DNA of 64,000 nt, taken from positions 278,120-342,119 of the forward strand of contig JANLFL010000001.1 in NCBI GenBank assembly GCA_024655965.1, in the 5' to 3' direction. The first letter of the stretch is position 1. The number at the start of each line of letters is the position of its first letter. The notes below the pieces were generated by a model. That model was not told the origin of the DNA. It made no database searches and saw only the letters and a program-made list of their open reading frames with translations. Positions 5,098 to 63,612 of this stretch are shown here, piece after piece. The translations under genes were made by a program, and so were the position numbers. This DNA comes from Caldisericota bacterium. GTDB taxonomy: Bacteria; Caldisericota; JANLFM01.

Positions 5098-6639
5098 ATG
5101 CCGGATAAAGCAGTTTATGAAAAAATGGTAAATGAGGCTGTAGGCGCAGCCCGTTCAGTTTATGGGGTGATCAAAGAAAAAAGAGGTGGAACCTTCAAGC
5201 TCACTGATGCCAAGCCCTATGTTGACGCTGCAGCTTCAATGAAACCAGGCCCTGGCCAATCAAAAGAGATTTTCGACCTCCATGTTGAATCCGTTAAAGC
5301 CCACTACGATATTCTGGTTGGCCTGACCGATACCATCCGTCCGGAAGATGATCCTTTTGTCGAGCACTACCAGACCCCGCCCATCTTGGAGATACTCTAC
5401 GATGTTGATCCCGCCTTCAAAGCTTCCATGTGGAAGTTCATCGATGCCATCGCTGCCAACAAAGCCTTAATCGGCCGCGAGGCTGCCAGACGGTACGGTG
5501 GAATGTATGGGCCTACCTGCGTCGTGGACTTCGCCATGTCCGTCGGCTCCACCTCCAACGTTGTCAACCAGATTCTGAGGACCCTGGACATCCCTGCCGA
5601 TCACAAAAAGACCATCCTTGCCGCCAAGAGCTGGGGCATGAACACCTCCTACGGAATTGGCGCTGCCTTCCGTGGGGCAGTGGAAGCCGGAAAATCCCTC
5701 GCCGAGGCCGAACAGGCTGAGGTTGAGATGCTGCAGTTCGTCTACCGGGAGCCGGTCGCTGCTCAAGCCCACTTGATGGACACTCACAACCTCGGAGGCC
5801 ATGGTCCCCACACCTCCTTCGATACCAGAAAATACATGGCCCAGTACAAAGAGAGGATTAAACCCTTCGTATTGGCCGCTCTGAATGCCAAGGTGCATCC
5901 TGCGAACATCGTGGTTGTCCCCGCCTACTGCGTAGGCGATGTGGGCCACCATATTGCCCAATCCGCCTACAACATGTTCAAGGATGACATGGCCTTCGGG
6001 ATTTACGAAGCGGTCCTGGATGTCTTCGAGAACACCATGAAGAAGGGGCTTGAGTTGGATGCCTACAAGAGCGAGTGGGACGTCCTTACTGTTGCCACTG
6101 GAGCTCCTGCCGCTGCCACAGCTTACATTCTCTGGCTCGACTCCTTCACCGTTCCCATGGTCATTGACCTCTTCACCAAGCGCTTCTACAACTATGCGGC
6201 AATGAACCCGAAACGGGGCGAGGCCGACGAGCTCCACAATGTGGACTTCATGGACATCCTCCTCCGCGGAGAATCCATCCTGGACATCGCTCCCATTGGC
6301 GGAGGCGCCAAGATCAAGGGCATTCCTCTGGACTTCGGTCCAATTGACAACCACCCCGTTGTTTCCAACCCGCAGCGTTACACCTATCCCGCCTGCGCTA
6401 TCACCCAGCGCTTTGCAGCATTGATGAGCCTGGCGGACTTCCCCTGCTACCTCACACCCGAGTGCGTAACCGCTACCCTGTCCACTAACTGCATCGCCTT
6501 CCACCCCGAGGTCCCTGGTGCTCCTGTGAGGGGATGCAAGCAGTGCGCTGCAACCACCCTTGTTAAGAGGAACGTCCCCTATGTAAAGGGAGTTGGAAAG
6601 GGCAATAAGGGTTACTGCCAGTGGGATGTAGCCGTATAA
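5098..6639 (+). CDS. DUF2193 family protein
   Basis: 513 residues, matching my memory of DUF2193, an uncharacterised family of about 500 residues known mainly from methanogenic archaea. Recognisable blocks are RPEDDPFVEHYQTP (81-94), RRYGGMYGPTCVVDFA (131-146), YCVGDVGHHIAQS (277-289), NPQRYTYPACAIT (424-436) and a Cys-rich C terminus (C450, C456, C465, C480-x-x-C483, C507). The invariant-looking Cys and paired His residues suggest a metal or Fe-S site, but no reaction is known. From about codon 100 the gene uses mostly C-ending codons, unlike its neighbours, which suggests high expression. It is a single-gene unit between a candidate promoter and a strong terminator, directly upstream of the C1 operon. 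Confidence 0.85.
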   Translation: MPDKAVYEKMVNEAVGAARSVYGVIKEKRGGTFKLTDAKPYVDAAASMKPGPGQSKEIFDLHVESVKAHYDILVGLTDTIRPEDDPFVEHYQTPPILEILYDVDPAFKASMWKFIDAIAANKALIGREAARRYGGMYGPTCVVDFAMSVGSTSNVVNQILRTLDIPADHKKTILAAKSWGMNTSYGIGAAFRGAVEAGKSLAEAEQAEVEMLQFVYREPVAAQAHLMDTHNLGGHGPHTSFDTRKYMAQYKERIKPFVLAALNAKVHPANIVVVPAYCVGDVGHHIAQSAYNMFKDDMAFGIYEAVLDVFENTMKKGLELDAYKSEWDVLTVATGAPAAATAYILWLDSFTVPMVIDLFTKRFYNYAAMNPKRGEADELHNVDFMDILLRGESILDIAPIGGGAKIKGIPLDFGPIDNHPVVSNPQRYTYPACAITQRFAALMSLADFPCYLTPECVTATLSTNCIAFHPEVPGAPVRGCKQCAATTLVKRNVPYVKGVGKGNKGYCQWDVAV

Positions 6640-6672
6640 GGCTACTCCTTTTGGCGGTCCGGTGAAATAATG

Positions 6673-6709
6673 CCACTGGTGAGGGAAATCCCTCACCAGT
6701 GGTTTTTTT
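6673..6709 (+). terminator. Strong intrinsic terminator after DUF2193
   Basis: A perfect 14-bp stem, CCACTGGTGAGGGA with its reverse complement around AA, is followed directly by seven T residues. It lies 33 bases after the DUF2193 stop and separates that gene from the C1 operon. Confidence 0.92.
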
Positions 6710-6760: not shown

Positions 6761-7639
6761 ATGAAAAACATTCTGATATACCTGGACACCGACAAAAGGG
6801 CCAGCATTTTTGACATCCTTTTTTCTTATGACGCGGGGTTCGATGTGGTCGTCCCCCTTGGGGGAGTGACAGCAGATGAAGTGAGGGCACTGGTCCAAGA
6901 CGCAATGTTCCCCCGGGGTCCTCAAGGGGCGAAATGCACTACCCTTTTCTTCGGGGGGAGCAACCCCGAGGAATCCGAGGAGATGGCGGAGATTGCCCGA
7001 AAAACAATGTTTCCCCCGTTTTTGCTTTCCGTGATCATCGATCCAAAGGGCGCAATCACAACCTCCTCAGCTATGGTCGCCAAAGCTGCGGAAGCCCTGA
7101 AGATGAGAAACGAAACCCTTAAAGGGAAAAAAGCCCTGATCCTTGCCGGAACCGGGCCAGTCGGACGAATTGCCGCCAGGATTCTTCTTAAAGAAGGGGC
7201 GGAGGTAATTTTGACCTCCCGGTCCCTGCAAAAGGCGGAGGAGATAGCGGATAAGGTAACTAAAAAGGTTGGCCTTCCCGCAAAGGGAGCAAAAGCCGAA
7301 ACCCCGGAAGAGGTATTCGCTCTGGCCCAGGATTGCGACCTCCTGTTCGCTACCGGGGCTGCGGGGGTTGAGCTAATACCACAAAAATTCGTGGAGCAGC
7401 TGGAAAGGTGCCTTGTCGCGGTTGACGTTAACGCCGTTCCCCCTTCGGGTATTGGAGGGGTTTCTCCGGGGGACGATAAGAAGGAAGTGGGGAAAGTCCT
7501 TGGGATTGGTGCTCTGGCGGTAGGAGGCTTGAGGAACAAGATCGCCCGCCAGATGCTTCAGGTGGCCCTGGAAAAAGGAGGGTCATTCCTGGACTACGAG
7601 AGCGGTTACCAGATCGCCAGGGAGATCGTTGGATTTTAA
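6761..7639 (+). CDS. mtdB: Methylene-tetrahydromethanopterin dehydrogenase, MtdB type
   Basis: 292 residues. It catalyses the NAD(P)-dependent step between methylene- and methenyl-H4MPT, the partner reaction to Mch. The Rossmann nucleotide-binding loop is ALILAGTGPVGRIAARIL near residues 123-140. The N-terminal half (YLDTDKRASIFD, PLGGVT) matches the MtdA/MtdB catalytic domain. An upstream in-frame ATG at 6749 overlaps the GGAGGTG ribosome site (6751-6757), so the ATG at 6761 is the better start. It is the first gene of the C1 operon. NAD(P) dependence here instead of F420 (archaeal Mtd) is a feature shared with methylotrophic bacteria. Confidence 0.88.
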   Translation: MKNILIYLDTDKRASIFDILFSYDAGFDVVVPLGGVTADEVRALVQDAMFPRGPQGAKCTTLFFGGSNPEESEEMAEIARKTMFPPFLLSVIIDPKGAITTSSAMVAKAAEALKMRNETLKGKKALILAGTGPVGRIAARILLKEGAEVILTSRSLQKAEEIADKVTKKVGLPAKGAKAETPEEVFALAQDCDLLFATGAAGVELIPQKFVEQLERCLVAVDVNAVPPSGIGGVSPGDDKKEVGKVLGIGALAVGGLRNKIARQMLQVALEKGGSFLDYESGYQIAREIVGF

Positions 7640-7654
7640 GAGCCAAGGGAAAAT

Positions 7655-8809
7655 TTGCAAATTCTAATTTTGGGCTTTTCTACAAGAGGGATCGCCGAAT
7701 CGGCAGTTAAAAGCGGCTACAGAGTCTTCACTGTGGATTTCTTCGGGGATTACGACCAGAGATTGCTGGTTAAAAATATTTCCCTTTTGCGGGACTTCGG
7801 ACTCCCCTTTTCAGCAAGGAACGTTCTCAAGGCAATAAAAAAGAGGCCCCTTGAATCGGATGCGATCGTCTACACCTCTCCCTTCGAGAATCATCCCCGT
7901 GAGGTCCAAAAAATTGCCCAGGGAAGGGTCCTTCTGGGAAATTCACCGGAATCCCTGAGGAAAGTCCGAAATTGGAAGCTTCTTCGCTCATTTTCGCTCA
8001 ATGAGGGAATTCCCCTCCCCGAAACAATTTTTCCCGGTGAACCACTCCCTCAAGAGGGAGAATGGTTAATCAAGCCGGAAAAGGGAGGGGGGGGTCATGG
8101 GATAAAACTGTGGAACGGGGAGAGGTTAAAAAGGGGCTTCTTTCTCCAGAAAAGGGAAAGGGGAACCCCTTGCTCCGTCGTTTTTGTCGCTGACGGCAAG
8201 AGGAGCCTCCTTCTTGGTATTTCAGAACAGTTGATCGGCCTTCCGGAACTGGGAGCAGGAGGGTTTACCTGGTGCGGGAACATCTCTCCCCTTGAAAAAG
8301 CAAAAGGGGAAACGGAAAATCTGGTTTGCAAGCTTGAGGAGATGACCTCAAAATTAACCCGGGCTTTCGCTTTAAAAGGAATAAATGGGATCGACTTCCT
8401 CCTTTCAGCTTCATCAAATACCCCCCTCCTTTTGGAAATCAATCCGAGGTTTCCCGCTTCCGTGGAGATCCTGGAAAGGGCATTCGATTTTCCCGGTTTT
8501 GATTTTCACGTCAAGGGTTGTCAAGGCCAGCTCCCCGATTTTCGCCTGAAAGAAAGGTTAGATTCGGAGGGATTCCTGGGAAAAGCGATCGTCTACGCTA
8601 AAAGGGACTCGATTGTTCCCACCGAAGTCGCCTCCTGGATTTTGAGGAACAGAAGGGATGTGCCTTTCCCGGGGGAAATAATCAAGAAGGGGCATCCTAT
8701 TTGCACGGTGTTTGCAAAAGGTCAAACAAGGGAGGAATGTTTCCAGGCTCTTCTTCTGGAGGCGGAAAAGGTGGAAGAGGAGTTAACTCCCTGCTTAATT
8801 ACTTCATAA
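7655..8809 (+). CDS. ATP-grasp enzyme of the H4MPT C1 cluster (OrfY/COG1821-like)
   Basis: 384 residues, TTG start 15 bases after mtdB with AAGGGA upstream. An N-terminal Rossmann-like half (LILGFSTRGIAESAVKSGY) is followed by an ATP-grasp fold: EWLIKPEKGGGGHG near 130-143 and the metal-binding LLEINPRFPAS near 261-271. Such proteins, called OrfY in Methylobacterium C1 clusters, are implicated in making methanopterin or methanofuran analogues by ligating an amino or carboxyl group; the exact substrate is not settled. Its place between mtdB and fwdD supports a cofactor-biosynthesis role. Confidence 0.75.
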   Translation: MQILILGFSTRGIAESAVKSGYRVFTVDFFGDYDQRLLVKNISLLRDFGLPFSARNVLKAIKKRPLESDAIVYTSPFENHPREVQKIAQGRVLLGNSPESLRKVRNWKLLRSFSLNEGIPLPETIFPGEPLPQEGEWLIKPEKGGGGHGIKLWNGERLKRGFFLQKRERGTPCSVVFVADGKRSLLLGISEQLIGLPELGAGGFTWCGNISPLEKAKGETENLVCKLEEMTSKLTRAFALKGINGIDFLLSASSNTPLLLEINPRFPASVEILERAFDFPGFDFHVKGCQGQLPDFRLKERLDSEGFLGKAIVYAKRDSIVPTEVASWILRNRRDVPFPGEIIKKGHPICTVFAKGQTREECFQALLLEAEKVEEELTPCLITS

Positions 8810-8821
8810 GGAGAAGGAGTA

Positions 8822-9163
8822 ATGGAAAATTTGAAATTTTTGCTCATTACGGGTCGAAGTCTTAAACAAGGGCAGGCGGCTGAACAGGGGAAGTTCTCCC
8901 CCGAATACATTAAGGAAACCACCACCGTGGAAATGAGCAAGGATGATTTGGATAGACTGGGACTGACCGAGGGAGCCGAGGTGAAGTTAAAAAGCTCCTC
9001 AGGGGAAGGGATTTTTCATATCAGGGTTTCCCAGGGATTGCCCCCGGGAATGCTCTTCATCCCTTATGGACCGCCAGCAAACCTCCTCATCCCTGCCGAG
9101 ACTGCTGGAACCGGAATGCCATGCTGCAAGGGAATTGATGTTGAACTTCTAAAGGAGTGGTAA
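8822..9163 (+). CDS. fwdD: Formylmethanofuran dehydrogenase subunit D
   Basis: 113 residues with AAGGAGAAGGAG before the ATG. This is the molybdopterin-dinucleotide-binding module (double-psi barrel). ITGRSLKQGQAAEQGK at the N terminus and PPGMLFIPYGPPAN near 79-92 match FwdD/FmdD of methanogens. It would hold part of the Mo/W bis-pterin cofactor together with FwdB. To my knowledge a separate FwdD is not part of the formyltransferase/hydrolase complex of methylotrophic bacteria, so its presence points to a true dehydrogenase. Confidence 0.88.
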   Translation: MENLKFLLITGRSLKQGQAAEQGKFSPEYIKETTTVEMSKDDLDRLGLTEGAEVKLKSSSGEGIFHIRVSQGLPPGMLFIPYGPPANLLIPAETAGTGMPCCKGIDVELLKEW

Positions 9164-10429
9164 ATGGAAACTCTAAATGCAACCTGTCCCTTCTGTGGCT
9201 GCCTTTGCGACGACGTACAAGTGGTCGTTGAGGACGGAAAGATAATTGAGGTCAAAAACGGCTGTAGCATTTCCAAAACCCTATTCACTCACCACCATTC
9301 CGAGGACCTTTATCCCGAAGTGAAGGGAAAGAAGACTGACCTGGAGGGTGCAATCAAGGAGGCCACCTCCATTCTCAAGGAAGCCCGCTTTCCCTTAATT
9401 TTCGGTTTATCGATGACCAACTGCGAAGCCCAGAGGAAGGCAGTGGAACTCGCGGAGTTGATTGGAGGGAACATCGACAGCACTTCCACATTTTGCCATG
9501 GTCCCACAACGCTGGCCATGCAAACCGTGGGAGAACCCACCTGTACTCTGGGAGAAGTGAAGAACCGGGCGGACCTGGTGATCTTCTGGGGTTGCAATCC
9601 CGTTGAGGCACATCCCCGCCACATTGCCAGGTACTCCGTCACCCCAAAAGGGATGTTCACCCCCGATGGTAGGAGGGGAAGGAAGGTGGTCACCGTAGAT
9701 GTGAGAATGACCCCCACGGCAAAGGTCTCGGACCTTTTTCTTCAAGTCCAGCCCCACAGGGATTATGAGGTCTTTGAAGCCCTTCGAGCCCTTGTCCAGG
9801 GGAAGGAAATCGGGGCGGATTCTGTGGGAGGGATACCCAAAAACACCCTCCAAGACTTGGCCAATCTGATGAAGGAATGCAAGTTCGGGATCGTCTTCTT
9901 CGGGATGGGTTTGACGATGACCCGGGGAAGGCAATGGAACATCGAGGCAGCGATCGCCCTTGTGAGGGACCTCAACCAGTTCACCAAATTCCTAATCATC
10001 CCCATGAGGGGGCATTACAACGTTACCGGGGCGGACGCGGTAGTGACCTGGCAGACGGGTTACCCTTACGCTTTAAATTTCAGCCGGGGATACCCTCAAT
10101 ACAGCCCGGGGGAGTTCACCACGGTTGACCTTTTAAGAAGACGGGAGGTTGACGCAGCGTTAATTTTAGGGTCAGACCCGATGGCAAGTCTCCCCCGGCA
10201 GGCTTCGAGCCACCTGGAGAGGATACCTTTTGTGGTGCTCGATTGTCGAAAAAGTTACTCCGCAAAATTCGCCACTGTTTTCATTCCGGTGGGTGCCTCA
10301 GGGGTTCATGTCCCTGGAACCGCCTACAGGATGGACGGGGTTCCGGTGACCATGAAAAAAGTCCTCGACTCCCCTAACCCCAGCGATGAAGAGGTTTTGG
10401 AGGAAATTATTAAGAGGTTAAAGCAATGA
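9164..10429 (+). CDS. fwdB: Formylmethanofuran dehydrogenase subunit B, metal ligands retained
   Basis: 421 residues, ATG directly after the fwdD stop with AAGGAG upstream. This is the Mo/W-pterin catalytic subunit that reduces CO2 to formate before it is passed to FwdA. The [4Fe-4S] motif is present as CPFCGCLC (C8, C11, C15) with C34 as fourth ligand. The STFCHGPTT block places C111 where the metal-coordinating Cys of archaeal FwdB sits. Further family blocks are VIFWGCNPVEAHPRH and IIPMRGHYNVTGADAV. Bacterial FhcB homologues are reported to have lost these cofactors, so this copy looks redox-active. No polyferredoxin subunit (FwdF/G) is nearby, so its electron partner is unknown. Confidence 0.93.
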   Translation: METLNATCPFCGCLCDDVQVVVEDGKIIEVKNGCSISKTLFTHHHSEDLYPEVKGKKTDLEGAIKEATSILKEARFPLIFGLSMTNCEAQRKAVELAELIGGNIDSTSTFCHGPTTLAMQTVGEPTCTLGEVKNRADLVIFWGCNPVEAHPRHIARYSVTPKGMFTPDGRRGRKVVTVDVRMTPTAKVSDLFLQVQPHRDYEVFEALRALVQGKEIGADSVGGIPKNTLQDLANLMKECKFGIVFFGMGLTMTRGRQWNIEAAIALVRDLNQFTKFLIIPMRGHYNVTGADAVVTWQTGYPYALNFSRGYPQYSPGEFTTVDLLRRREVDAALILGSDPMASLPRQASSHLERIPFVVLDCRKSYSAKFATVFIPVGASGVHVPGTAYRMDGVPVTMKKVLDSPNPSDEEVLEEIIKRLKQ

Positions 10430-12063
10430 TTACCAAAATTACCGGAGGAAAAGTTTACGATCCAATTAACCGCTTGAACGGAAAATGCCTTGATCTCTGG
10501 ATCGAGGGAGGAAAGATTGTCCGGGTTGGGGAAGCCCCTGACCTTTCTCCGGACAGGGTAATTGACGCGGGCAATTGCATTGTCATGGCAGGAGGAATCG
10601 ACATCCACTCCCACATTGCGGGGGGAAAAGTAAACCTGGGAAGGAAGTTAAGGCCCGAAGATCACCGTAAGGATGTGGTTCCTAGATCGGAAACCACCCG
10701 CTCAGGAGTGGGCTATTCCATCCCTTCCACCTTCGTCACGGGATACCGGTACGCCCAAATGGGATACACAACTGTGATGGAAGCGGCAATGCCCCCGCTT
10801 TCCGCCAAGCATACTCACGAGGAACTTCACGACATTCCCATGCTCGACAAGGGCGCTTATACACTCATGGGAAATAACCATTTCCTCTTGAGTTTTATCC
10901 AAAAAGGGGATATTGAGAAAGCCCGGGCTTTCGTCTCCTGGTTACTAAAAGTGACCCGTGGATATACAGTCAAAATTGTAAACCCCTGTGGGGTGGAAAG
11001 TTGGAAGTGGGGAAAGAATGTCCACGACCTTGATCAGAGGGCAATCGATTATGACGTCACCCCCCGAAAGGTGATCTCCTCCCTTTCACGGATAGCGGAC
11101 GACCTCCGACTTCCCCACTCCATTCACCTTCACTGCAACAACATCGGAACCCCGGGAAACTACGAGGTCACCATCGAGTCCATGAAAGCCGCCGGGGGAA
11201 ACCGGGTCCACATTACCCACGCCCAGTTCAACAGTTACGGGGGAAAGAGCTGGGGGGACATTCACTCTAAAGCTCCCGAGGTTGTGGACTACGTAAATAA
11301 GAATCCCAACGTCACTTTCGATATCGGACAGATCGTATTCGGGGACACCACAACCATGACCGCAGACGGTCCTTGGCAATATCGTCTCCACCTCCTGTCG
11401 GGAAACAAATGGATCAATGCCGACGTGGAAATGGAGACCAGCGCAGGGGTTGTTCCCTACACTTTCCGAAAAAAGAGCCTGGTGAATGCGGTCCAGTGGG
11501 CTATCGGCCTGGAACTGATCCTCCTGGCGGATGATCTCTGGAGGGCGTTCATGACCACCGACCACCCGAATGGGGGGCCCTTCACCTTTTACCCTCAAAT
11601 TATCAAGCTCCTGATGAACAAAGCATTCCGGGAGGAAATGGTCTCTCAACTCCCAAAGAAGGTCCTGGAAAGGATTAACCTTCCTCAGATCACCAGGGAA
11701 TTCTCCCTCTTCGAGATCGCCATCATTACCCGGGCCGCCCCAAGCAAGCTCCTCGGCCTTCATCAGAAGGGACACCTCGGGGTCGGGGCTGATGCAGACA
11801 TCGCCATATATGAGGAGAATCCGGATGTTGAGAAGATGTTTTCTTCAGTGAAATTCCTGCTCAAGGACGGGGATTTGGTCATAGAAAACGGAAAAATTTT
11901 AAAGAGCGTTCCCGGGAGAATCCTCTATGTGGATCCCGGAGAGGAAGGTGAGATCGAAAACTTAATCAGGGATGATTTTGAAAAATTTTACACCCTTAAC
12001 CTGGAGAACTACCGGGTCCCTGACAACTACATGGAACGAGGTGAGTGCGTACCATGCGGATAA
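10426..12063 (+). CDS. fwdA: Formylmethanofuran dehydrogenase subunit A (amidohydrolase)
   Basis: 545 residues; its ATG overlaps the fwdB stop (ATGA). FwdA is a binuclear-metal amidohydrolase that condenses formate with methanofuran. Metal ligands are visible as GGIDIHSHIAGG (H61, H63), SIHLHCNNIGTPGNYE, VHITHAQFNSYGGKSWGD, and the Asp in TTDHPNGGPFTFYP. The length is close to archaeal and bacterial (FhcA) homologues. Gene order fwdB-fwdA-ftr-fwdC equals the fhcB-A-D-C order of methylotrophic bacteria. Confidence 0.94.
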   Translation: MITKITGGKVYDPINRLNGKCLDLWIEGGKIVRVGEAPDLSPDRVIDAGNCIVMAGGIDIHSHIAGGKVNLGRKLRPEDHRKDVVPRSETTRSGVGYSIPSTFVTGYRYAQMGYTTVMEAAMPPLSAKHTHEELHDIPMLDKGAYTLMGNNHFLLSFIQKGDIEKARAFVSWLLKVTRGYTVKIVNPCGVESWKWGKNVHDLDQRAIDYDVTPRKVISSLSRIADDLRLPHSIHLHCNNIGTPGNYEVTIESMKAAGGNRVHITHAQFNSYGGKSWGDIHSKAPEVVDYVNKNPNVTFDIGQIVFGDTTTMTADGPWQYRLHLLSGNKWINADVEMETSAGVVPYTFRKKSLVNAVQWAIGLELILLADDLWRAFMTTDHPNGGPFTFYPQIIKLLMNKAFREEMVSQLPKKVLERINLPQITREFSLFEIAIITRAAPSKLLGLHQKGHLGVGADADIAIYEENPDVEKMFSSVKFLLKDGDLVIENGKILKSVPGRILYVDPGEEGEIENLIRDDFEKFYTLNLENYRVPDNYMERGECVPCG

Positions 12064-12941
12064 ATGGAGTGGAAATAGAGGATACCTTTGCGGAAGCCTT
12101 TAAGATGTATGCGGCGAGGATCATCGTCACCGCCTTCAACCGTAAATGGGCTCTGGAGGCTGCGAATAAACTGACTGGTTTCGCAACTTCCATCATTGCC
12201 TGTGGGTGCGAAGCAGGAATCGAACGGGAGATTTCCCCCGAGGACTCCCCTGATGGCCGGCCCGGGGTCTCAGTCCTCCTGTTCACGATGGGGAAAAAGG
12301 GAATGGAGGAGCAGCTCCTGAACAGGGTCGGCCAGACTGTGATGACCTGCCCGACAACCGCCTGTTTCAACGGCCTTTCCTCCCCGGAGAAGGTCAAGGT
12401 GGGAGGAAAGCTTCGCTACTTCGGGGACGGCTTTCAAATCAGCAAACTGCTCGAAGGTAGAAGGTTCTGGAGGATTCCCGTGATGGAGGGGGAATTCCTG
12501 GTTGAGGACAGTTTTGGAATTCAACCGGCAATCGGAGGAGGAAACTTTCTGATCCTGGGAGAAACCCCTCAAATTACCCTGGAGGCAGCTGAAAGAGCGG
12601 CAAAGGCTTCAAGCGAAGTCCCAGGAGTGGTCCTTCCTTTCCCGGGAGGAATCGTCAGGAGTGGAAGCAAAGCCAGCTCAATTTACAAATTCCTTCGGGC
12701 TTCAACCAACACCGCCTTCTGCCCGACGATCAGGGGGCAGGTGAAATCTGAACTCCCTGAAGGAGTGAACTGCGTCCTGGAGATCGTGATTGACGGCTTA
12801 GACGAGGAGTCCATTCGCCAATCGATGAAAAAAGGGGTGGAAGCTGCCTGCATTGACGGCATAAAACGGATTTCCGCCGGGAATTATGGAGGGAAACTTG
12901 GTCCTTTCCACTTTCACCTCCACGAATTATTCAAAAGTTGA
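12054..12941 (+). CDS. ftr: Formylmethanofuran:H4MPT formyltransferase
   Basis: 295 residues, the family length. It transfers the formyl group from formyl-methanofuran to N5 of H4MPT. The N terminus MRINGVEIEDTFAEAFKMY is diagnostic. Other conserved blocks are GCEAGIE, GGIVRSGSKASS and GGKLGPFHFHLHEL. I chose the ATG at 12054 over the upstream GTG at 12045 because GAGGTGAG (12038-12045) is well spaced for it and it gives the canonical N terminus. It overlaps the fwdA end by 10 bases. In bacteria the homologue is FhcD. Confidence 0.95.
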   Translation: MRINGVEIEDTFAEAFKMYAARIIVTAFNRKWALEAANKLTGFATSIIACGCEAGIEREISPEDSPDGRPGVSVLLFTMGKKGMEEQLLNRVGQTVMTCPTTACFNGLSSPEKVKVGGKLRYFGDGFQISKLLEGRRFWRIPVMEGEFLVEDSFGIQPAIGGGNFLILGETPQITLEAAERAAKASSEVPGVVLPFPGGIVRSGSKASSIYKFLRASTNTAFCPTIRGQVKSELPEGVNCVLEIVIDGLDEESIRQSMKKGVEAACIDGIKRISAGNYGGKLGPFHFHLHELFKS

Positions 12942-12955
12942 GCGGGGTAAAAGAT

Positions 12956-13783
12956 ATGGACAATATTGTGATCAGACCGAAAACTGAATTCGAGGTTCCC
13001 GTGGAAGCGGAGGTGATTTCCCCGGACATCCTGGCCCGGAAAAGCCCCGGGGAAATTGGAAACCTTCCGGTTTATTTGGGAAACAGGAAGATGGCCCTAA
13101 AAGATCTTTTCGAGATCGAAGGCAATCCCTCGATGAACCTCCTCCTTGAAGGGGATTTCTCCAGGGTGAAAAAAATCGGCTTCGGAATGACCCAAGGAAA
13201 GATTCACATTAAAGGAAACGTGGGGATGCACACAGGGGCGACCATGAAAGGCGGAGAGATCCTAATTGAAGGGGACGCTTCAGACTGGTTGGGTGCAGAG
13301 ATGACCGGAGGAATCATTCGCGTTCTTGGTAACGCCGGGAACTTCGCAGGAGCCACCTACTGGGGCGGAAAATTCGGAATGAACCGGGGGACAATCCTGA
13401 TATTCGGAAACACCGGAAACGAAACAGGCAAGAAGATGCGTCGTGGCTTGATCGCCATCCGGGGATACACCGGTGACTACCTTGGAGGAGGGATGATTGG
13501 AGGATCGATCTTCGTCTTTTCCGGGATCGGACAAAGGCCGGGTGCAGAAATGAAGAGGGGAAGCATCGTCCTTTTTCAGGAAAATTCCCCAAATCCCCCG
13601 GAACTCCTGCCCACCTTCATCTACAATTGCACCTTCAACCCCACTTTTCTAAGGCTTTATCTCAAGGCCTTAAAGGACTATGGCTTCCCTGTAAAGGAGG
13701 AATACATCCAGGGAAATTACCGGAGGTTCGCCGGGGACATTGTTGAACTTGGGAAAGGAGAGATTCTTGTCTATGAACCCTGA
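12956..13783 (+). CDS. fwdC: Formylmethanofuran dehydrogenase subunit C
   Basis: 275 residues from the ATG at 12956, preceded by GCGGGG; an in-frame TTG overlapping the ftr stop at 12938 is the alternative. FwdC is a structural subunit related to the C-terminal beta-helix of glutamate synthase. The GxGxG-type repeats are plain between residues ~65 and 200 (GFGMTQGKIHIKGNVG, GATMKGGEILIEGDAS, GAEMTGGIIRVLGNAG and so on). It scaffolds FwdA and FwdB/D. Confidence 0.93.
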   Translation: MDNIVIRPKTEFEVPVEAEVISPDILARKSPGEIGNLPVYLGNRKMALKDLFEIEGNPSMNLLLEGDFSRVKKIGFGMTQGKIHIKGNVGMHTGATMKGGEILIEGDASDWLGAEMTGGIIRVLGNAGNFAGATYWGGKFGMNRGTILIFGNTGNETGKKMRRGLIAIRGYTGDYLGGGMIGGSIFVFSGIGQRPGAEMKRGSIVLFQENSPNPPELLPTFIYNCTFNPTFLRLYLKALKDYGFPVKEEYIQGNYRRFAGDIVELGKGEILVYEP

Positions 13784-14714
13784 TTTTTCTTTGAATGATC
13801 GGGCTTTTCAAATCGTGCAAAGGATGATCAAGGATGCCCCTGCCCTGGGAATAAAAGTCGGGGAACTGACGAACGGAGTCAAAGTCCTCGACGCCACCGC
13901 TTCAGGATACCAGGCGGGGAAATTATTTGCTGAGGTCTGCCTGGGAGGGCTTGGGGAGGTATCCTTCACCTCTCTTGATTTTCCCGAGTTCTCCCTTCCG
14001 GGGGTCTCGGTAACCGTCGAGCACCCCTTCCGGGCTTGCCTTGCCTCTCAGTACGCCGGCTGGAGCATCAAGGTGGGAAATTTCTTCGCCTTAGGCTCGG
14101 GACCGGCAAGGGCCTTGGCCCGGGTAGAGAAGTTGTTCGAGGAGCTGGAGTACTCGGAGGAAGGGGAAAATGGGGTTCTCGCCCTCGAGTGCCGCACTGC
14201 CCCTCCAGATGAGGTGGGGGCATACATCGCCAAGCAGTGCCGGGTGAAACCCCAAAATCTCTTCATCCTCTTTGCACCCACCGCAAGCCTAGTGGGCTCG
14301 ATCCAGATTTCCGCAAGGATTGTGGAAACGGGAATGCACAAAATGAGAGAGCTTGGCTACGATATAAAAAAGGTAAAAGCAGGATTCGGAACCTGCCCCC
14401 TTGCTCCTGTGGCCAAGGATGATCTTCAAGCCATCGGTTGGACAAACGATTGCGTCCTTTATGGAGGCAAAGCTTATTACCTCGTTGAGGATAGGGAAAA
14501 CAGAATCGAAGAGGTGATCTCTAAAATTCCCTCCTCCGCTTCAAAGGACTACGGGGTTCCTTTTTTAGAGCTGTTTAAACGTTACGGGAACTTTTACGAT
14601 ATAGACCCCATGCTCTTCAGCCCCGCGGAAGTATATGTGAACAACCTCTCCAACGGGAAAACCTTACACTCGGGAGGAGTAAACCTGGAAATCCTCAAGA
14701 GACTCATGAGTTGA
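13773..14714 (+). CDS. mch: Methenyl-H4MPT cyclohydrolase
   Basis: 313 residues, close to the family length of about 315-320. It interconverts formyl- and methenyl-H4MPT between Ftr and MtdB. Family blocks include NDRAFQIVQRM, GSGPARALARVEKLFEEL, and AGFGTCPLAPVAKDDLQAIG. The ATG at 13773, preceded by GGAAAGGAGA, is preferred over an upstream TTG. It overlaps fwdC by 11 bases, consistent with translational coupling. Confidence 0.94.
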   Translation: MNPDFSLNDRAFQIVQRMIKDAPALGIKVGELTNGVKVLDATASGYQAGKLFAEVCLGGLGEVSFTSLDFPEFSLPGVSVTVEHPFRACLASQYAGWSIKVGNFFALGSGPARALARVEKLFEELEYSEEGENGVLALECRTAPPDEVGAYIAKQCRVKPQNLFILFAPTASLVGSIQISARIVETGMHKMRELGYDIKKVKAGFGTCPLAPVAKDDLQAIGWTNDCVLYGGKAYYLVEDRENRIEEVISKIPSSASKDYGVPFLELFKRYGNFYDIDPMLFSPAEVYVNNLSNGKTLHSGGVNLEILKRLMS

Positions 14715-15592
14715 GAATCGGGATTTTAGGGCAAAGGAGGAGCTGGCACGTCCAGACCCTCCAGGATGCCTTTTTAAAGAGGGGAATCCCCTGCGATTTT
14801 CTTTCCATAACAAAAATTATCGCGGGGGTTTCCCATCAACCTTACGCTTCTTCGGAGGGCGTGAACCTCGAGGAATTCGATGCCCTTGTAATCAGGAGCA
14901 TACCTTCCGGATCCCTTGAGCAGGTCATTTTTCGCGTGGACGTGCTCCACAGGCTGGAGAACCTGGGGGTAATGGTGATTAATTCTGCCACCACCCTTGA
15001 AAGAAGCGTGGATAAATACTTTACCTCCTCCCTCCTTGAGGACGCGGGAATCCCCACCCCGAGGACCGTGGTTACGGAAAGATTCGAAAGCGCCATGGAA
15101 GCCTTCGTTCAATTTAAGGATGTGGTAGTGAAACCCCTTTTCGGCTCCGAGGGGAAGGGAATTGTCAGGGTCCAGGATGAGGACATGGCTTACAGGGTGT
15201 TCAAGGCTCTGGAGCTTGGGAATTACGTTTTCTACGTTCAGGAGTTCATCCCCCATTTTAACCGGGACATAAGGGTCTTTATAATCCAAGACGAGCCAGT
15301 TGCAGCAATGGTCAGGGAAAGCGATCTCTGGAAAACAAACATCGCCCGGGGGGCGAAGGCTCGACCTCTGGATATTACCCCGGAATTCAGGGAATTGAGC
15401 GTCAAAGCCGCCAAAACCCTTGGGGCTTTCTATGCTGGTGTGGACATCCTTGAAGCTGAAGATGGGAGACTTCTGGTAACGGAGATCAATGGAATTCCAG
15501 GGTGGTACGGCTTACAAGGAGCAACGGGAATCCACGTCGCCGACCTAATCGCCAAAAACCTGATCGAATTCCTTTCCCAAAAGAGGAAATAA
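14711..15592 (+). CDS. RimK/MptN-family ATP-grasp ligase (Orf17-like)
   Basis: 293 residues, TTG start overlapping the mch stop (TTGA). It is an ATP-grasp ligase of the RimK/MptN group: VVVKPLFGSEGKGIVRV near 138-154, the PHFNRDIRVFI strand, and the metal-binding LLVTEINGIPGW near 257-268. MptN adds glutamate to tetrahydromethanopterin in archaea. The Methylobacterium homologue Orf17, also next to mch, is needed for the C1 pathway. The most likely role is therefore late-stage modification of the H4MPT or methanofuran analogue; the exact substrate is an inference. Confidence 0.8.
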   Translation: MRIGILGQRRSWHVQTLQDAFLKRGIPCDFLSITKIIAGVSHQPYASSEGVNLEEFDALVIRSIPSGSLEQVIFRVDVLHRLENLGVMVINSATTLERSVDKYFTSSLLEDAGIPTPRTVVTERFESAMEAFVQFKDVVVKPLFGSEGKGIVRVQDEDMAYRVFKALELGNYVFYVQEFIPHFNRDIRVFIIQDEPVAAMVRESDLWKTNIARGAKARPLDITPEFRELSVKAAKTLGAFYAGVDILEAEDGRLLVTEINGIPGWYGLQGATGIHVADLIAKNLIEFLSQKRK

Positions 15593-15594
15593 AA

Positions 15595-16464
15595 ATGGGA
15601 TCGGGAAGGTTCACTCCCTTTGAGGTCGCTCAAATGGCCCAGATTTCCTGCATACTGGAGGCAACAGCTGAAAAGCCGGGAAACGTAACCCGATTTAAGG
15701 ATGCCTCCGATATGAGATACACCCATTTTCTCTTGAGTGCCATCGCCATCGGCCCGGCCTTCGAAAAGGCAAAGGATTTAGGAGTCGGGGAGATCATTTT
15801 TTCAGCAATCCGGGATACCCATCGCTTCGTTCATTGCAACACCAACTTGGGAATCGTCCTGCTCCTCGCCCCCTTAGCCAAGGCGTGTCTTGAGGGAGGA
15901 GAATGGGAAACCTCCCTCAATCGCCTCTTGAATTCCCTCACCGTGGAGGACGCCATATTTGCCTATCGGGCGATCCGGATCGCCAACCCGGGTGGAATGG
16001 GAAAGGTCAAGGAATACGATGTGCAAGAAGGGGACCCGGATATCACCTTGAAGGAAGCGATGGAGTTAGCCCGGGAAAGGGACTTGATTGCCCGGGAATA
16101 CGTGTCCGATTTCGAAATCACCCTTTCTTTTGGAGCGCCTGAACTTCTTAAAAATTGGGAAAAATCCGGGGATATCCTCGACTCAATCGTCCAGACCTTC
16201 CTATTACTCCTCTCCGAATTTCCCGACTCCAAGATCTCCCGGAGCCGGGGGGAGGAGATCGCCAGAGAAGTCTCGTCCAGAGCAAGCGAGGTCTTGAAAG
16301 AGGGGGGAATATATACCCGGAAAGGGCGGGATTCCCTTTTTAATTTTGACCTCTTCCTCAGGGAAGGGAAATTGAACCCGGGGACAACCGCGGATCTCGT
16401 TACTTCCTCCCTCTTCGTTGTCCTGATTGAAAAAGGTCCCGAGGATTTTTTAAAAAAACTTTGA
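15595..16464 (+). CDS. CitG-like protein of the H4MPT cluster (Orf5-like), copy 1
   Basis: 289 residues from the ATG at 15595, two bases after the previous stop; an upstream in-frame ATG at 15502 lies inside the preceding gene and is rejected. It belongs to the triphosphoribosyl-dephospho-CoA synthase family (COG1767): TAEKPGNVTRFKDASDMRYT, then IRDTHRFVHCNTNLGIVLLLAPLA near 62-85, where acidic and His residues would bind metal and ATP. CitG itself makes the citrate lyase prosthetic group, but the Methylobacterium homologue Orf5 is tied to H4MPT-dependent C1 metabolism. A divergent second copy lies at 19.3-20.4 kb. Confidence 0.82.
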   Translation: MGSGRFTPFEVAQMAQISCILEATAEKPGNVTRFKDASDMRYTHFLLSAIAIGPAFEKAKDLGVGEIIFSAIRDTHRFVHCNTNLGIVLLLAPLAKACLEGGEWETSLNRLLNSLTVEDAIFAYRAIRIANPGGMGKVKEYDVQEGDPDITLKEAMELARERDLIAREYVSDFEITLSFGAPELLKNWEKSGDILDSIVQTFLLLLSEFPDSKISRSRGEEIAREVSSRASEVLKEGGIYTRKGRDSLFNFDLFLREGKLNPGTTADLVTSSLFVVLIEKGPEDFLKKL

Positions 16465-17477
16465 ACCGAGAAGGTTATCCCATCGAAGGTTTTTACCTGG
16501 AAACACCGGAGAGATTTTTCTTTGCCGCTAAAGGGGTAGTGCAGAGCCCCGCAAAGGTCTTCGCGGTCCTGAGGTACATCCCTCATCCCCAGGGTGATAG
16601 GATCAGGGGAGGGGAAAAATTCAAAAGGCTCTATGATTTTCAGGAACAGGAAAAATTCCTTGAGAGTTTTCCTCACTACCTTTTTTTTGATCCTTTCCTT
16701 GGCATCCGGCTTCAGTGCGTGCCTCGAGACTTGATCAAAAAAGTTTTCGATCCCCGGGAAAAACTGAGGGAGTTGAAAAACCATGCCCAGGACCCCTTGG
16801 AAGAGGCAGTTTGTGATTTTGCAAACCTTCTCAAATCCATATCCGGTGTCCCCTGGGAAAACTTTGGGGTCTCGGGATCATTGCTCCTTTCCCTCCACCT
16901 ACCCCAATCGGACCTCGACCTCCTGGTTTACGGGGAGGAAAAATCAAGGAGGGTGTATGCCGCTTTGAAAGAAATTTTTAAATCCGCAAAAGGTGAATTA
17001 AAAGCCCTTGACGAGGAAGATTTAGTCCGGCTCTACAGGCAGCGCTCCCAAGAACCGGCCCTTTCCCTCGAAGAATTCAGGAGGACAGAAAAGGGTAAGG
17101 TCCTCCAGGGCAGGTTTCGGGGGAGAGAATATTTCATCAGGCTTGTAAAGGAGCCATGGGAGATCGGGGAAAAATACGGGGAAATAAAATATTCCCCGGC
17201 GGGGAAGGTAAAAATCAGGGCAAGAGTAATTGACGCCAGCCAGGGGATTTTTACCCCCTGTCTTTACCAAATTGACCGGGTGAAAGTCCTGGAGGGGGAA
17301 AAGGGCGAAATTCCCCAGGAGGTCTTCTCCTTCCGGGGGAGATATTGTGAGCAGGCAACCGAGGGAACGGAGGTCTTAGTTAGGGGCAATCTGGAGCGAA
17401 TGGATTTCCAGGACGGGAGGGTCCAATTTAGGGTGCTTCTAACCGGAGCGGATGATTTCTTTATCCCCTGCCCCTGA
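16461..17477 (+). CDS. Nucleotidyltransferase-fold protein (COG1665-like)
   Basis: 338 residues, TTG start overlapping the upstream stop (TTGA). The central block FGVSGSLLLSLHLPQSDLDL near 134-153 matches the nucleotidyltransferase signature GS-x(9-11)-D-x-D. The N-terminal region (VFAVLRYIPHPQGDR) and C-terminal beta-rich region (PCLYQIDRVKVLEG) resemble an archaeal family of predicted nucleotidyltransferases. No substrate is known. As the last gene of the C1 operon it may act in cofactor synthesis, which is inferred only from position. Confidence 0.6.
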   Translation: MNREGYPIEGFYLETPERFFFAAKGVVQSPAKVFAVLRYIPHPQGDRIRGGEKFKRLYDFQEQEKFLESFPHYLFFDPFLGIRLQCVPRDLIKKVFDPREKLRELKNHAQDPLEEAVCDFANLLKSISGVPWENFGVSGSLLLSLHLPQSDLDLLVYGEEKSRRVYAALKEIFKSAKGELKALDEEDLVRLYRQRSQEPALSLEEFRRTEKGKVLQGRFRGREYFIRLVKEPWEIGEKYGEIKYSPAGKVKIRARVIDASQGIFTPCLYQIDRVKVLEGEKGEIPQEVFSFRGRYCEQATEGTEVLVRGNLERMDFQDGRVQFRVLLTGADDFFIPCP

Positions 17478-18595: not shown

Positions 18596-18616
18596 TGACC
18601 CGGCTCCTTCTACCTG

Positions 18617-18644
18617 AAGATATTTACCTTTAAGAAATTGCCAA
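18617..18644 (-). promoter_or_regulatory. Candidate promoter of ino1
   Basis: On the minus strand TTGGCA (18644-18639) and TATCTT (18622-18617) are separated by 16 bases, ending about 20 bases before the ino1 ATG. It fits a sigma-70-type promoter moderately well and would make ino1 independent of mobA upstream. Confidence 0.42.
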
Positions 18645-18659
18645 CAGGCTTAATATAAC

Positions 18660-19295: not shown

Positions 19296-19317
19296 GGAGA
19301 TTTCCCCGCCTTCTCCT

Positions 19318-40386: not shown

Positions 40387-42147
40387 TTAGGAAGCCTGTT
40401 CTTCAAGTCCCTTCAATATGGTTTCTTTAAGTTTTTCGCTCTCGACCAAACCGGTCTTTAAAAGCTTTCCCTTGAGATAAATGCCCCAAACGGGGTATTG
40501 CTTGAAATCCTCTCTTTTGAATATCAGATGCTCCTTAAAGCCAAACCTTTCCTGGGAAAGCCCAAGGGCAAGGACTGCTTCCCGGTAATTTTTCAAAAAC
40601 AGAGAACAATAAGGGGGTAGGACTGCCTCAAGGATTACTTCCCCTTTTTCCTCTCCTCCCTCTTCCGCCTCTAAAAAATTCACCGCTCCTTCCTTTAAGG
40701 ATTTTAGGTGTAACCCCCACTCCCCCCTCTTGTCCACCATGATAAAGCCCATTTTGTCCAAAAATGCAGGCGGGATCAAGGAATTATGGGATAGAGCGAA
40801 AAGCCCCGAGGAATCCTCAACCGCTTGAAAGGCATAATCCAGAAGTTCCCTTCCCAGTCCCTTTCCCCTGTGTTCCTGCCTTACCCTTAAGCAGGCCAGA
40901 ACCCAAAAATCATCACCATTAGCCGGAAATGGAGAATCCTCAGCTTTCCCCAGAATTACTCCCCCCTGAACTCCGGAATTGTCGGAAAGGGAGAAAAACC
41001 TCCAACCCTTCTTTTGGGCGGAAGCAAGGAAATCCTGACATTCCTTTAAAGGTTCAGTGCAAAAGGAGCAGAATTGGGAGGGGTCTCCTTGGAAGGGGGA
41101 ACACTTGAAATTTGAGGAAAAGGCAGGTTCAATCTCCGGCCCTTTCTCGGGGGGCTTTTCCCTAACCGGAAATTTGGAGAAAGGTTTCCAGCCTTTCAAA
41201 ACCCCAAAAAACCCTCTCAAGGAGGAGAAAGCCTTACCGGTTATCGGTTTTGGTGGCTGAAAGAGAAAATTCCTCGCTTTTGGAAGGAAGAGAAAGTTCC
41301 ACAAAGGGACGGTTGCATTGGCAAAGGGAAGGGAAAAAATGATCCCTAAAACAGGCCCGAAAATAAGCCTGAATGGAATGGAGATTAAGCCTCCCAGGAC
41401 CCCGAAAGCTAATTTTCCCTTTAAGGTCAAAGGGGTGGTCCCGGAAAGGGGAACCACAAAAACGCCAAAGAATAGGGCGTCGTTGGCCACAAACTGGGAA
41501 AGCACAGGAACCTGGGAAAAAATGAGAAAAAAGACCGAACCCAAAAGATAGGAGAGGGAAACTAATGTATTCAGGCTCCTCCTCAGGGCAAGATAAATTC
41601 CCCCAAGAATGATCGCCAGGAAGGAGTAGCTCCCAAGTGCCTGGTTTCCCGAGGAAAGCAATAGGAGCTGATACCACTCCTTTGTCCGGACGACGGTTTG
41701 TCCCGATTCCTCAAGCGCTGGCCATTTATAAGTTAAGACTCCCGGAAAGAGGAAGAAAACAAGGATCAGGGAAAGGATCAAAGGATGAAACACGCTCCTC
41801 CCCAGACCTCCGGGAATTACCTTTCCCAGAAGGACAGCAAATGCGGCCACAAGAACTGGGATGTATAGTGGAGAATTGGGAGGAAGGACGAGGGCGGAGA
41901 GAAATCCCATGGAAATCGCCCACCCATCATCGAGGGAAAAACTCTGGGAAAGAGCGAAGGAAAAGATGACCTCGGCGAAAACCGCTCCCAGGACGGAGAG
42001 AGTTAAAAAGAGGAAGGAAGGACCAATCCCGTAAGAGAGGGAGCCTGCAAGAAAAGCGGGGATTAAAGCGATGATTAAATCCCAGTTTGTGCGGTAATAA
42101 TTCTTTCCAAAAATGAAGGGGGGGAAGACCTGGGATCTTTTTCTCAT
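40387..42147 (-). CDS. RnfD/NqrB-like membrane subunit fused to GNAT and YoaP-like domains
   Basis: 586 residues from the ATG that overlaps the RnfC-like stop (ATGA). Residues ~20-300 are an NqrB/RnfD membrane domain with about nine hydrophobic segments. ESGQTVV (S148-T151) stands where RnfD/NqrB carry the SGAT motif for covalent FMN. Residues ~345-375 hold four Cys (C349, C360, C363, C370). A GNAT domain follows with acetyl-CoA loop RQEHRGKGLG (423-432), then a YoaP-like tail (~505-586) like that of the GNAT at 0.8-1.6 kb. Such a fusion is not one I know. No RnfA, B, E or G genes are present in the window. Confidence 0.8.
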   Translation of the reverse strand: MRKRSQVFPPFIFGKNYYRTNWDLIIALIPAFLAGSLSYGIGPSFLFLTLSVLGAVFAEVIFSFALSQSFSLDDGWAISMGFLSALVLPPNSPLYIPVLVAAFAVLLGKVIPGGLGRSVFHPLILSLILVFFLFPGVLTYKWPALEESGQTVVRTKEWYQLLLLSSGNQALGSYSFLAIILGGIYLALRRSLNTLVSLSYLLGSVFFLIFSQVPVLSQFVANDALFFGVFVVPLSGTTPLTLKGKLAFGVLGGLISIPFRLIFGPVLGIIFSLPFANATVPLWNFLFLPKARNFLFQPPKPITGKAFSSLRGFFGVLKGWKPFSKFPVREKPPEKGPEIEPAFSSNFKCSPFQGDPSQFCSFCTEPLKECQDFLASAQKKGWRFFSLSDNSGVQGGVILGKAEDSPFPANGDDFWVLACLRVRQEHRGKGLGRELLDYAFQAVEDSSGLFALSHNSLIPPAFLDKMGFIMVDKRGEWGLHLKSLKEGAVNFLEAEEGGEEKGEVILEAVLPPYCSLFLKNYREAVLALGLSQERFGFKEHLIFKREDFKQYPVWGIYLKGKLLKTGLVESEKLKETILKGLEEQAS

Positions 42148-43385
42148 GATCCCCTCCGTTCCTTTGCCTTCTTCAAATACTTCTGGTGAGGGATGTGGGC
42201 GGGGCATACATAAGAACAAGTCCCGCAGAAAATACAATTTTCGGGTTCGAGTCCCTTTAAAGCCCCCCAATTTCTGGACTTCACCGCTTCGCAAATGAAG
42301 ACCGGATAAAGTCCCTGGGGGCAGGAATCTATGCAGGACCCGCAAAAAACACAGTTTGTCTGAAGGAAAGGATTTCTCTGGGGGAGAAAGACGAACCCCC
42401 GGGAATTCCGCATGATGGGAACTTCGAGGGTGTGAATTACCTGGCCTCTGAGGGGCCCACCCATGATGATCATCCCGGGATCGATCGAGAAACCGTCGCA
42501 CTGAGCCACAAGCTCTCCAAGCATGGTCCCGATCCTCGCCCTTATGTTCTGGGGGTTCCTCAGGGCCGGACCGGTAACTGTTACTACAACTTCGGTCAAG
42601 GGTTGCCTGAAGGTTATTGCCTCATGGGAATCCACCGCTTTGGGGAGCTCAAGGATGATCGACTTTCCCTCAGAAATTCCCAGGACTTTTCTGATTAAAA
42701 CTGGGTGGTCAAGGGGATAACGAGGAGGAAAAAGGAAAAGCTCGATCTTTTTTGAAAAGATCAGGTCCCTGAGATCCTCCAAAATCCCCCTATTTTCTGT
42801 TGATACCACGAGAATCGCTCTCTCCGCTTCAACCGCCCTTGAGAGGTACTCAATCCCTGATACAACCTCCTTGGTCTTTTCCTCCAGCAAGCGTTCGGTG
42901 GAGGTCAAATACGGCTCGACTTCGCAGCCATTGATCACCAGAGTGATTGGCGGTTCTTTTCCTGAAAGTTCCAAATCAAGATCGATCACTCCCAGGCGAA
43001 AAAGGAGCGAGCGGAGCTCTTGAGGGGAGAAATCCCTCTTGGGGATGGTTATCGGCAGAAGCTGTTCGTCTTTCCGGGGAGCGATGATGATCGTATCCAC
43101 TGGTTCTGTGGACCAGGGAAGAACGGACTTCTCCAGGGCAACGACCTCTCCCCAAACCGGGGAGAATAGGGGCAGGGACTCTTTTTTGTCAGGTGTTGCC
43201 ACCTGCTGTCCCTTCCTCACCGGGCTTCCCGGGCGAACCAGGGGTTTTAAGGGGATCTGGTTCCCTTTTTCCTGAAGAGGCAAGCAGATTTTTTGTGGCA
43301 GGATTGAGGGCCGGATCATTTTGTCAATAGTCGCTTCCTGACGTAAGGGGATCCAGACGCCTGGAAGAGATAATCTGGGCTCCAA
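42144..43385 (-). CDS. RnfC-like iron-sulfur protein lacking the glycine-rich flavin loop
   Basis: About 413 residues. RnfC-like barrel-sandwich N terminus (KPLVRPGSPVRKGQQVATP), Complex1_51K-like core (TLVINGCEVEPYLTSTERLL, VTVTGPALRNPQNIRARIGT, GMIIMGGPLRGQVIHTLEVP) and two [4Fe-4S] motifs, CVFCGSCIDSCPQG and CIFCGTCSYVCPAHIP. The canonical GLGGAGFPTHVKL flavin/NADH loop is missing; the region reads LGVIDLDLELSGK. The start is uncertain: TTG 43385 with AAGGAG six bases upstream is chosen; TTG 43400 (overlapping the hypE stop) or ATG 43319 are alternatives. It probably passes electrons to the RnfD-like partner. Confidence 0.82.
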   Translation of the reverse strand: MEPRLSLPGVWIPLRQEATIDKMIRPSILPQKICLPLQEKGNQIPLKPLVRPGSPVRKGQQVATPDKKESLPLFSPVWGEVVALEKSVLPWSTEPVDTIIIAPRKDEQLLPITIPKRDFSPQELRSLLFRLGVIDLDLELSGKEPPITLVINGCEVEPYLTSTERLLEEKTKEVVSGIEYLSRAVEAERAILVVSTENRGILEDLRDLIFSKKIELFLFPPRYPLDHPVLIRKVLGISEGKSIILELPKAVDSHEAITFRQPLTEVVVTVTGPALRNPQNIRARIGTMLGELVAQCDGFSIDPGMIIMGGPLRGQVIHTLEVPIMRNSRGFVFLPQRNPFLQTNCVFCGSCIDSCPQGLYPVFICEAVKSRNWGALKGLEPENCIFCGTCSYVCPAHIPHQKYLKKAKERRGS

Positions 43386-43396
43386 CAATTTCTCCT

Positions 43397-45447: not shown

Positions 45448-45448
45448 T

Positions 45449-45667
45449 TCAGGGAAAGACCTCCGCTTCCCTCAATAGTTTAAGGGTTTCCTCCGCCTCC
45501 TCCTCATTCAGTATGGAGATTGCAAAGCCGGCATGGACTATTACGAAATCCCCTGTTTTCACCTCGGGAACGAAATCGATCCTTACCGTTTGCTTGAGCC
45601 CCCCAACCTCCACGAGAGCTTCCTGCCCGTTAATTTCTTTTACTTTAACCGGAATTCCTAAACACAT
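45449..45667 (-). CDS. hypC: Hydrogenase maturation chaperone HypC
   Basis: 72 residues with the canonical N terminus MCLGIPVKV, whose Cys2 (after Met removal Cys1) carries the Fe(CN)2CO unit to the hydrogenase large subunit. GDFVIVHAGFAISILNEEEA closes the OB-like fold. It overlaps the hypF end by 10 bases. Confidence 0.96.
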   Translation of the reverse strand: MCLGIPVKVKEINGQEALVEVGGLKQTVRIDFVPEVKTGDFVIVHAGFAISILNEEEAEETLKLLREAEVFP

Positions 45668-63176: not shown

Positions 63177-63179
63177 TTT

Positions 63180-63608: not shown

Positions 63609-63612
63609 TTCA

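Follow-up and report, generated by a model that had tools for sequence, protein, structure and literature searches.

What tetrahydromethanopterin (H4MPT) and methanofuran genes do in bacteria that are neither methanogenic nor methylotrophic is an open question. Such genes, some of them accompanied by a retained fwdD, were noted in 2016 in Synergistetes, Firmicutes, Actinomycetes, Chloroflexi and NC10 and were described as "enigmatic" in non-methylotrophs (PMC5020050). The question is raised by a 64,000-nucleotide stretch of a Caldisericota bacterium (contig JANLFL010000001.1, positions 278,120 to 342,119), here called the window, which harbors an eleven-gene one-carbon (C1) operon of this kind at positions 6761-17477. 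The host is a small anaerobe with a small genome, identified as a bacterium by the bacterial DNA polymerase III alpha encoded in the window. We consider it likely that this bacterial operon for H4MPT- and methanofuran-linked C1 transfer encodes a redox-active formylmethanofuran dehydrogenase (Fwd), that it interconverts CO2 and methylene-H4MPT, and that it belongs to a broad bacterial clade rather than being a transition form. We read the module as trading electrons with NAD(P), and probably with ferredoxin/H2, and as serving neither ordinary methylotrophy nor acetogenesis.

The operon and its dehydrogenase

All eleven genes are on the + strand and overlap or are spaced by no more than about 15 bases, according to the open reading frame (ORF) list and profile searches. 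They are given here with the DUF2193 gene and the terminator that precede them:

5098..6639, +, DUF2193 protein, 513 aa (PF09959, 5e-227)
6672..6703, +, strong intrinsic terminator 3′ of DUF2193, 14-bp stem and T run (from sequence)
6761..7639, +, mtdB, NAD(P)-dependent methylene-H4MPT dehydrogenase (PF09176 N domain, 1.4e-25)
7655..8809, +, MfnD-like ATP-grasp ligase (ATP-grasp_3; PF02655, 1e-20; position kept in many bacterial operons)
8822..9163, +, fwdD, molybdopterin-dinucleotide-binding subunit (PF01568, 2e-15; NF042908, 3.7e-24)
9164..10429, +, fwdB, catalytic W/Mo subunit (TIGR03129, 2.8e-174; alignment with PDB chains)
10426..12063, +, fwdA, amidohydrolase-type formylmethanofuran hydrolase subunit (TIGR03121, 1e-235)
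12054..12941, +, ftr, formylmethanofuran:H4MPT formyltransferase (TIGR03119, 6e-132)
12938..13783, +, fwdC (TIGR03122, 5.5e-80)
13740..14714, +, mch, methenyl-H4MPT cyclohydrolase (TIGR03120, 7e-116)
14711..15592, +, mptN-like RimK-family H4MPT:glutamate ligase (NF040720, 4.5e-85, 285 bits, below the cut-off of 350)
15502..16464, +, CitG-like protein, recurrent in such operons (PF01874, 2e-69)
16461..17477, +, nucleotidyltransferase-domain protein, NTP_transf_2 (PF01909, 1.8e-5; relatives also in archaeal clusters)

The type of dehydrogenase is indicated by its catalytic subunits. FwdB from the window scores 430-437 bits against methanogen-type PDB chains and 63 bits against FhcB of Methylorubrum extorquens. 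In alignment with the PDB chains it keeps the catalytic tungsten-ligating Cys111 (STFCHGP) and the 4Fe-4S cysteines C8, C11, C15 and C34, while FwdA conserves H61, H63, K183, H265 and D379, the expected metal ligands. The Fhc complex is recognized by an FhcB without a redox site and by the lack of FwdD; here the catalytic cysteine and FwdD are both present, the latter alongside the intact FwdA ligands. Given the retention of these residues in FwdB and FwdA, the complex, in contrast to Fhc, is expected to be redox-active, and FwdABCD is predicted to be of the archaeal, catalytic type.

A preliminary description of this DNA had proposed eleven compact genes, the identities of MtdB, Mch, Ftr and FwdA/B/C/D, an NAD(P)-type MtdB and an archaeal-type dehydrogenase. 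Of these proposals, the first two are confirmed and the last two supported: the first by the ORFs, the family models and the conservation of gene order in other genomes, the second by PF09176 and the TIGR/NF models, the third by comparison with PDB sequences, in which MtdB falls in the NAD(P) MtdB/MtdA family and matches the M. extorquens MtdA structures at 3e-52, and the last by the FwdB scores (437 against 63 bits), Cys111 in STFCHGP and the presence of FwdD. A GGAGGTG Shine-Dalgarno sequence directly 5′ of ATG 6761 makes the mtdB start there plausible; the ftr ORF opens at 12045, with ATG 12054 (MRINGVEIEDT) as the probable start. The ligase at 7655..8809 would act in methanofuran biosynthesis.

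The DUF2193 gene and its terminator were absent from the preliminary description. Because the strong terminator at 6672-6703 lies between DUF2193 and mtdB, DUF2193 is probably a transcription unit separate from the operon. Just past the operon, on the − strand (17498-20364), are genes for an inositol-1-phosphate synthase, a MobA-like nucleotidyltransferase and a second CitG-like protein, a region shared with another species of the same genus (G001).

Direction of the pathway and its electron partners

The genome to which the window belongs (G000) is predicted from its gene content to make H4MPT: its contig C22 carries a biosynthesis cluster of DUF447, RFAP synthase, FolK-MptA, a dihydromethanopterin-reductase-like flavoprotein, a DHPS-like protein and DUF1464. 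The preliminary description had named other C1 genes to be sought outside the window. Profile searches found no Fae (PF08714) in G000 or G001. Neither Mer nor MetF, nor CdhD, which in combination would mark an archaeal-type Wood-Ljungdahl pathway, was found in G000 in a search that did not extend to carbon monoxide dehydrogenase (CdhA) or the acetyl-CoA synthase beta subunit (CdhC), and the pathway would thus end at methylene-H4MPT. FolD is present in G000, with three genes on contigs C43, C12 and C11 (loci L143, L144 and L145), and the glycine decarboxylase P protein (GcvP) is encoded in both species. Two further regions of the window bear on electron transfer:

40387..47919, −, RnfD- and RnfC-like genes with HypE-like, HypD and HypF genes (ferredoxin/NADH and hydrogenase-maturation context)
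59814..63924, −, membrane-bound group-4 type [NiFe] hydrogenase genes running past the window end (family matches)

The second region encodes a HycI protease, a Fer4 protein, NuoH-, NuoD/large-subunit-, 30 kDa- and 20 kDa-like proteins, and one ORF without a family. This group-4 hydrogenase is a possible electron partner of the operon. The hydrogenase operon as a whole (window 59814-63924 and L156 1385-5413) includes two antiporter-like subunits, and a further [NiFe] large subunit is found at L156 11712-13139.

We moderately favor an oxidative direction. MtdB would convert methylene-H4MPT to methenyl-H4MPT with NAD(P)+, Mch would convert this to formyl-H4MPT, and Ftr would pass the formyl group to methanofuran. 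FwdA would free formate inside the complex for oxidation to CO2 by FwdB/FwdD, and the electrons would reach the group-4 [NiFe] hydrogenase or an Rnf-type complex, presumably via ferredoxin. The MfnD-like and MptN-like proteins would help in methanofuran and H4MPT synthesis, together with the remaining H4MPT cluster on contig C22, and DUF2193 could act in the step feeding or draining methylene-H4MPT.

Several points weigh against this account. The genes themselves do not show direction. G000 is a binned genome with 98% completeness and 5% contamination, and absences from it are consequently not proof. A search limited to the operon and its surroundings found no ferredoxin-like FwdF/G or 4Fe-4S (CxxCxxCxxxC) protein, so that the electron carrier is an inferred one. 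The polyferredoxins FwdF and FwdG are part of the methanogen complex but not of every fwd cluster.

The operon could instead be used reductively, with Fwd fixing CO2 at the expense of H2, through the group-4 hydrogenase, or of Rnf electrons, and with methylene-H4MPT supplying serine, glycine or other biosynthesis in a manner similar to the glycine pathway. A redox-competent FwdB/FwdD, the encoded hydrogenases and the P protein in both species are consistent with such a use. It is nevertheless less likely, as an enzyme moving the methylene group of H4MPT into serine or glycine is hypothetical, folate enzymes exist in parallel, and glycine cleavage is widespread in bacteria anyway.

Placement among bacterial and archaeal relatives

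In a FwdB tree of 42 bacterial and 39 archaeal sequences (two long rows removed), a single branch with 100/99 support parts the bacterial sequences, including that of the window, from the archaeal ones, and it is found in all 200 bootstrap trees checked. The same split between domains is seen for FwdA (97), Mch (94) and MptN (95); these and the FwdC, Ftr and MtdB trees are quick trees with Shimodaira-Hasegawa-like approximate likelihood ratio (SH-aLRT) support only. The FwdC tree is the exception, requiring two changes. In the Ftr tree, a single clade (97), sister to the Hadarchaeota (95), holds the bacteria, the window and M. extorquens FhcD among them. Within it, the window groups with G001 and a variant locus on contig C2 (93), beside two Chloroflexota (88). 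MtdB forms two subclades, with the window joining Chloroflexi L070 and NC10 (100). A position of all the proteins inside proteobacterial Fhc, contemplated in the preliminary description, is not seen, since the window FwdB is not inside that group. These trees place the window locus within a broad bacterial Fwd/Ftr clade and not between the domains. Ftr (88) and DUF2193 similarity suggest a position with the Chloroflexota.

Gene order was compared in the best 80 loci from a scan of GTDB genomes with FwdB. G001 (loci L032/L033) keeps the operon order of the window, and the order (DUF2193)-mtdB-mfnD-fwdD-fwdB-fwdA-ftr-fwdC-mch-mptN-(citG) recurs, with variations, in the Chloroflexota, Synergistota, Actinobacteria, Desulfobacterota, Bacillota and NC10, such operons being found in at least six further bacterial phyla. 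Conservation in G001 and in so many phyla argues that the order is not due to chance. The NC10 loci have no mfnD match at that position. Unlike in the window, fwdA and ftr are separated by an insert in many Synergistota loci; in one Synergistaceae locus it holds H4MPT biosynthesis genes, namely those for FolK-MptA and a DHPS-like protein. Within the phylum of the window, FwdB proper and Ftr were found only in G000 and G001 among the genomes sampled, and viral contigs contained no Ftr relatives.

The preliminary description had set a bacterial gene order against archaeal enzyme content. This contrast is not upheld: the order fwdD-B-A-ftr-C, which continues with mch-mptN in Hadarchaeota L036 and with mptN in Bathyarchaeia, is not specifically bacterial. 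These archaeal clusters (L036, L037 and L045) resemble the window in that order, and L036 also in mch and mptN, but they have no MtdB match and fall on the archaeal side of the trees. The fwdD gene is present as described, but it is no methanogen-like oddity, since fwdD beside mtdB is the common state across many bacterial phyla, and bacterial fwdD is already in print (PMC5020050, PMC7325909).

That the locus truly stands midway in phylogeny between the CO2-reducing versions of archaea and the formaldehyde-oxidizing ones of bacteria, as the preliminary description had suggested, is improbable. The early, solitary branch of the window FwdB among bacterial sequences, near bacterium 42_11, and the sister relationship of the bacterial Ftr clade to the Hadarchaeota could be taken in its favor. 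However, the well-supported bacterial clades of FwdB, FwdA, Mch, MptN and Ftr take in the window, even if the order of FwdB branches around it is open, and many other bacteria have the same mix of genes. What stands of the suggestion is the combination of a catalytic Fwd with an NAD(P) MtdB.

The operon kind is already in print, and the genus of the window is a new member. In Actinobacteria (Hakuba), fwdDBA-ftr-fwdC with Cys118 has been described, and H4MPT biosynthesis genes were not observed there (PMC7325909); Fwd genes have also been reported in hydrogen-producing Acetomicrobium (Synergistota) (PMC6025917). The window operon shares with these FwdABCD and Ftr, the order fwdD-B-A-ftr-C, the lack of FwdFG from the operon and the catalytic cysteine reported for the Actinobacteria. 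Unlike the Hakuba Actinobacteria, its genome has an H4MPT biosynthesis cluster. The size of the bacterial FwdB clade, with 42 sequences, contradicts a statement that bacterial FwdB representatives are absent (PMC7331816).

Compared with the tungsten Fwd of Methanothermobacter (PDB 5t5i), the window has homologous FwdA/B/C/D with the catalytic and FeS cysteines, but no FwdF/FwdG nearby, an NAD(P) MtdB in place of the F420 dehydrogenase, and a FwdB that belongs to a distinct clade of bacterial sequences. The archaeal origin of this branch is the subject of Adam et al. 2019 (Nat. Microbiol. 4:2155), a study that reportedly also described colocalized genes in archaea. The resemblance to Fhc and MtdA/MtdB of M. 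extorquens (PDB 6s6y, 1lu9) extends to an FhcB-A-D-C-like order, Ftr within the cluster, an NAD(P) dehydrogenase and Mch. It is nonetheless very improbable that the operon serves ordinary methylotrophy of the Methylorubrum type, in which formaldehyde is oxidized and formate released in the manner of Fhc: MtdB, Mch, Ftr and FwdA/B/C are common to methylotrophs, but neither species of the genus has Fae, in a search that did not take in methanol or methylamine dehydrogenases, FwdB is far from FhcB, and FwdD is present.

DUF2193 and the variant locus on contig C2

DUF2193 is the most conserved protein of the locus, with 94% identity between the window and G001 and 73-83% identity to its counterparts at four loci from other phyla, against 55-89% and 32-73%, respectively, for the operon proteins. 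Among 386 sampled genomes it was found only in G000 and G001, with Ftr above the cut-off in six more. DUF2193 occurs in 21 of 46 Fwd/Ftr-bearing bacterial genomes, none of which has a canonical Fae; canonical Fae is present in 13 of the 25 without DUF2193 (Fisher p = 5e-5, kinship ignored). This exclusion is limited to bacteria, as Baldrarchaeota archaeon G106, the only archaeon compared, and M. acetivorans carry both. Several Chloroflexota with DUF2193 (G065, G072, G073, G075 and G082) have divergent Fae domains, two per genome, embedded in longer ORFs (about 480-670 aa).

DUF2193 is directly adjoined by an MIP channel (aquaglyceroporin) gene in three Bacillota and one Baldrarchaeota archaeon, followed in at least two of the three Bacillota loci by H4MPT biosynthesis genes:

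L147 6879-7667, MIP channel gene beside DUF2193
L148 9354-10109, MIP channel gene beside DUF2193
L149 8843-9565, MIP channel gene beside DUF2193
L150 8790-9551, MIP channel gene beside DUF2193

The AF2 model of DUF2193 is all-helical (pLDDT 80.8, pTM 0.86), and a PDB fold search returned no neighbor at E ≤ 0.001. A role as a corrinoid methyltransferase with activator was rejected, the neighbors being a sigma-54 regulator and the MIP channel. In the sole paper found on DUF2193, the protein is conserved in methanogens, its function is unassigned, and a Cys motif near its C terminus is a possible binding site for a metal cluster (PMC9431491). We hypothesize that DUF2193 is a candidate enzyme for C1 entry or exit at methylene-H4MPT.

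A variant of the locus is found on contig C2 of the same bin (L031 1-8860; 8860 bases, GC content 42% versus 51%). Its order is mfnD-fwdB-fwdA-ftr-fwdC-mptN, the contig lacks fwdD, mch and mtdB, and its flanks (ARPP-1, MobA-like and LiaF) match those of the window in order and relative orientation. The C2 FwdB is 41% identical to that of the window and has SLWLGP for STFCHGP, replacing the catalytic Cys with Trp, and LGNDLNF for MRGHYNV; in alignment, FwdA keeps its ligands. In trees, C2 groups with the window and G001 for FwdA (100), FwdC (95) and Ftr (91), and for FwdB at only 60. With this grouping of FwdA, FwdC and Ftr and the syntenic flanks, import of a proteobacterial Fhc was rejected. 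Because of the difference in GC content, C2 is more likely a contig of a sibling species or population in the bin than a duplicate in the same genome, although it may be bin contamination (5%) or a duplicate. On contig C12, FolD lies in a stretch that shares 66% DNA identity with the C43 copy, which points to more than one species in the bin. If C2 is the allele of a sibling population, a redox Fwd would have become an Fhc-like non-redox complex there, apparently independently.

A wider proposal, which we regard as speculative and rather unlikely as a whole, is that non-methylotrophic bacteria and some archaea use an H4MPT module that does without Fae and whose missing enzyme for C1 entry or exit is DUF2193, a helical protein acting on a small uncharged compound that permeates aquaglyceroporins, and that the sister population's Fwd turned Fhc-like independently at the C2 locus, a fwd-to-fhc transition outside the Proteobacteria.

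The locus thus represents a small genome in which the module, cofactor synthesis and hydrogenases occur together and searches for Fae, MetF, Mer and CdhD came out negative, and it offers in DUF2193 a concrete candidate for the step that would feed or drain methylene-H4MPT.

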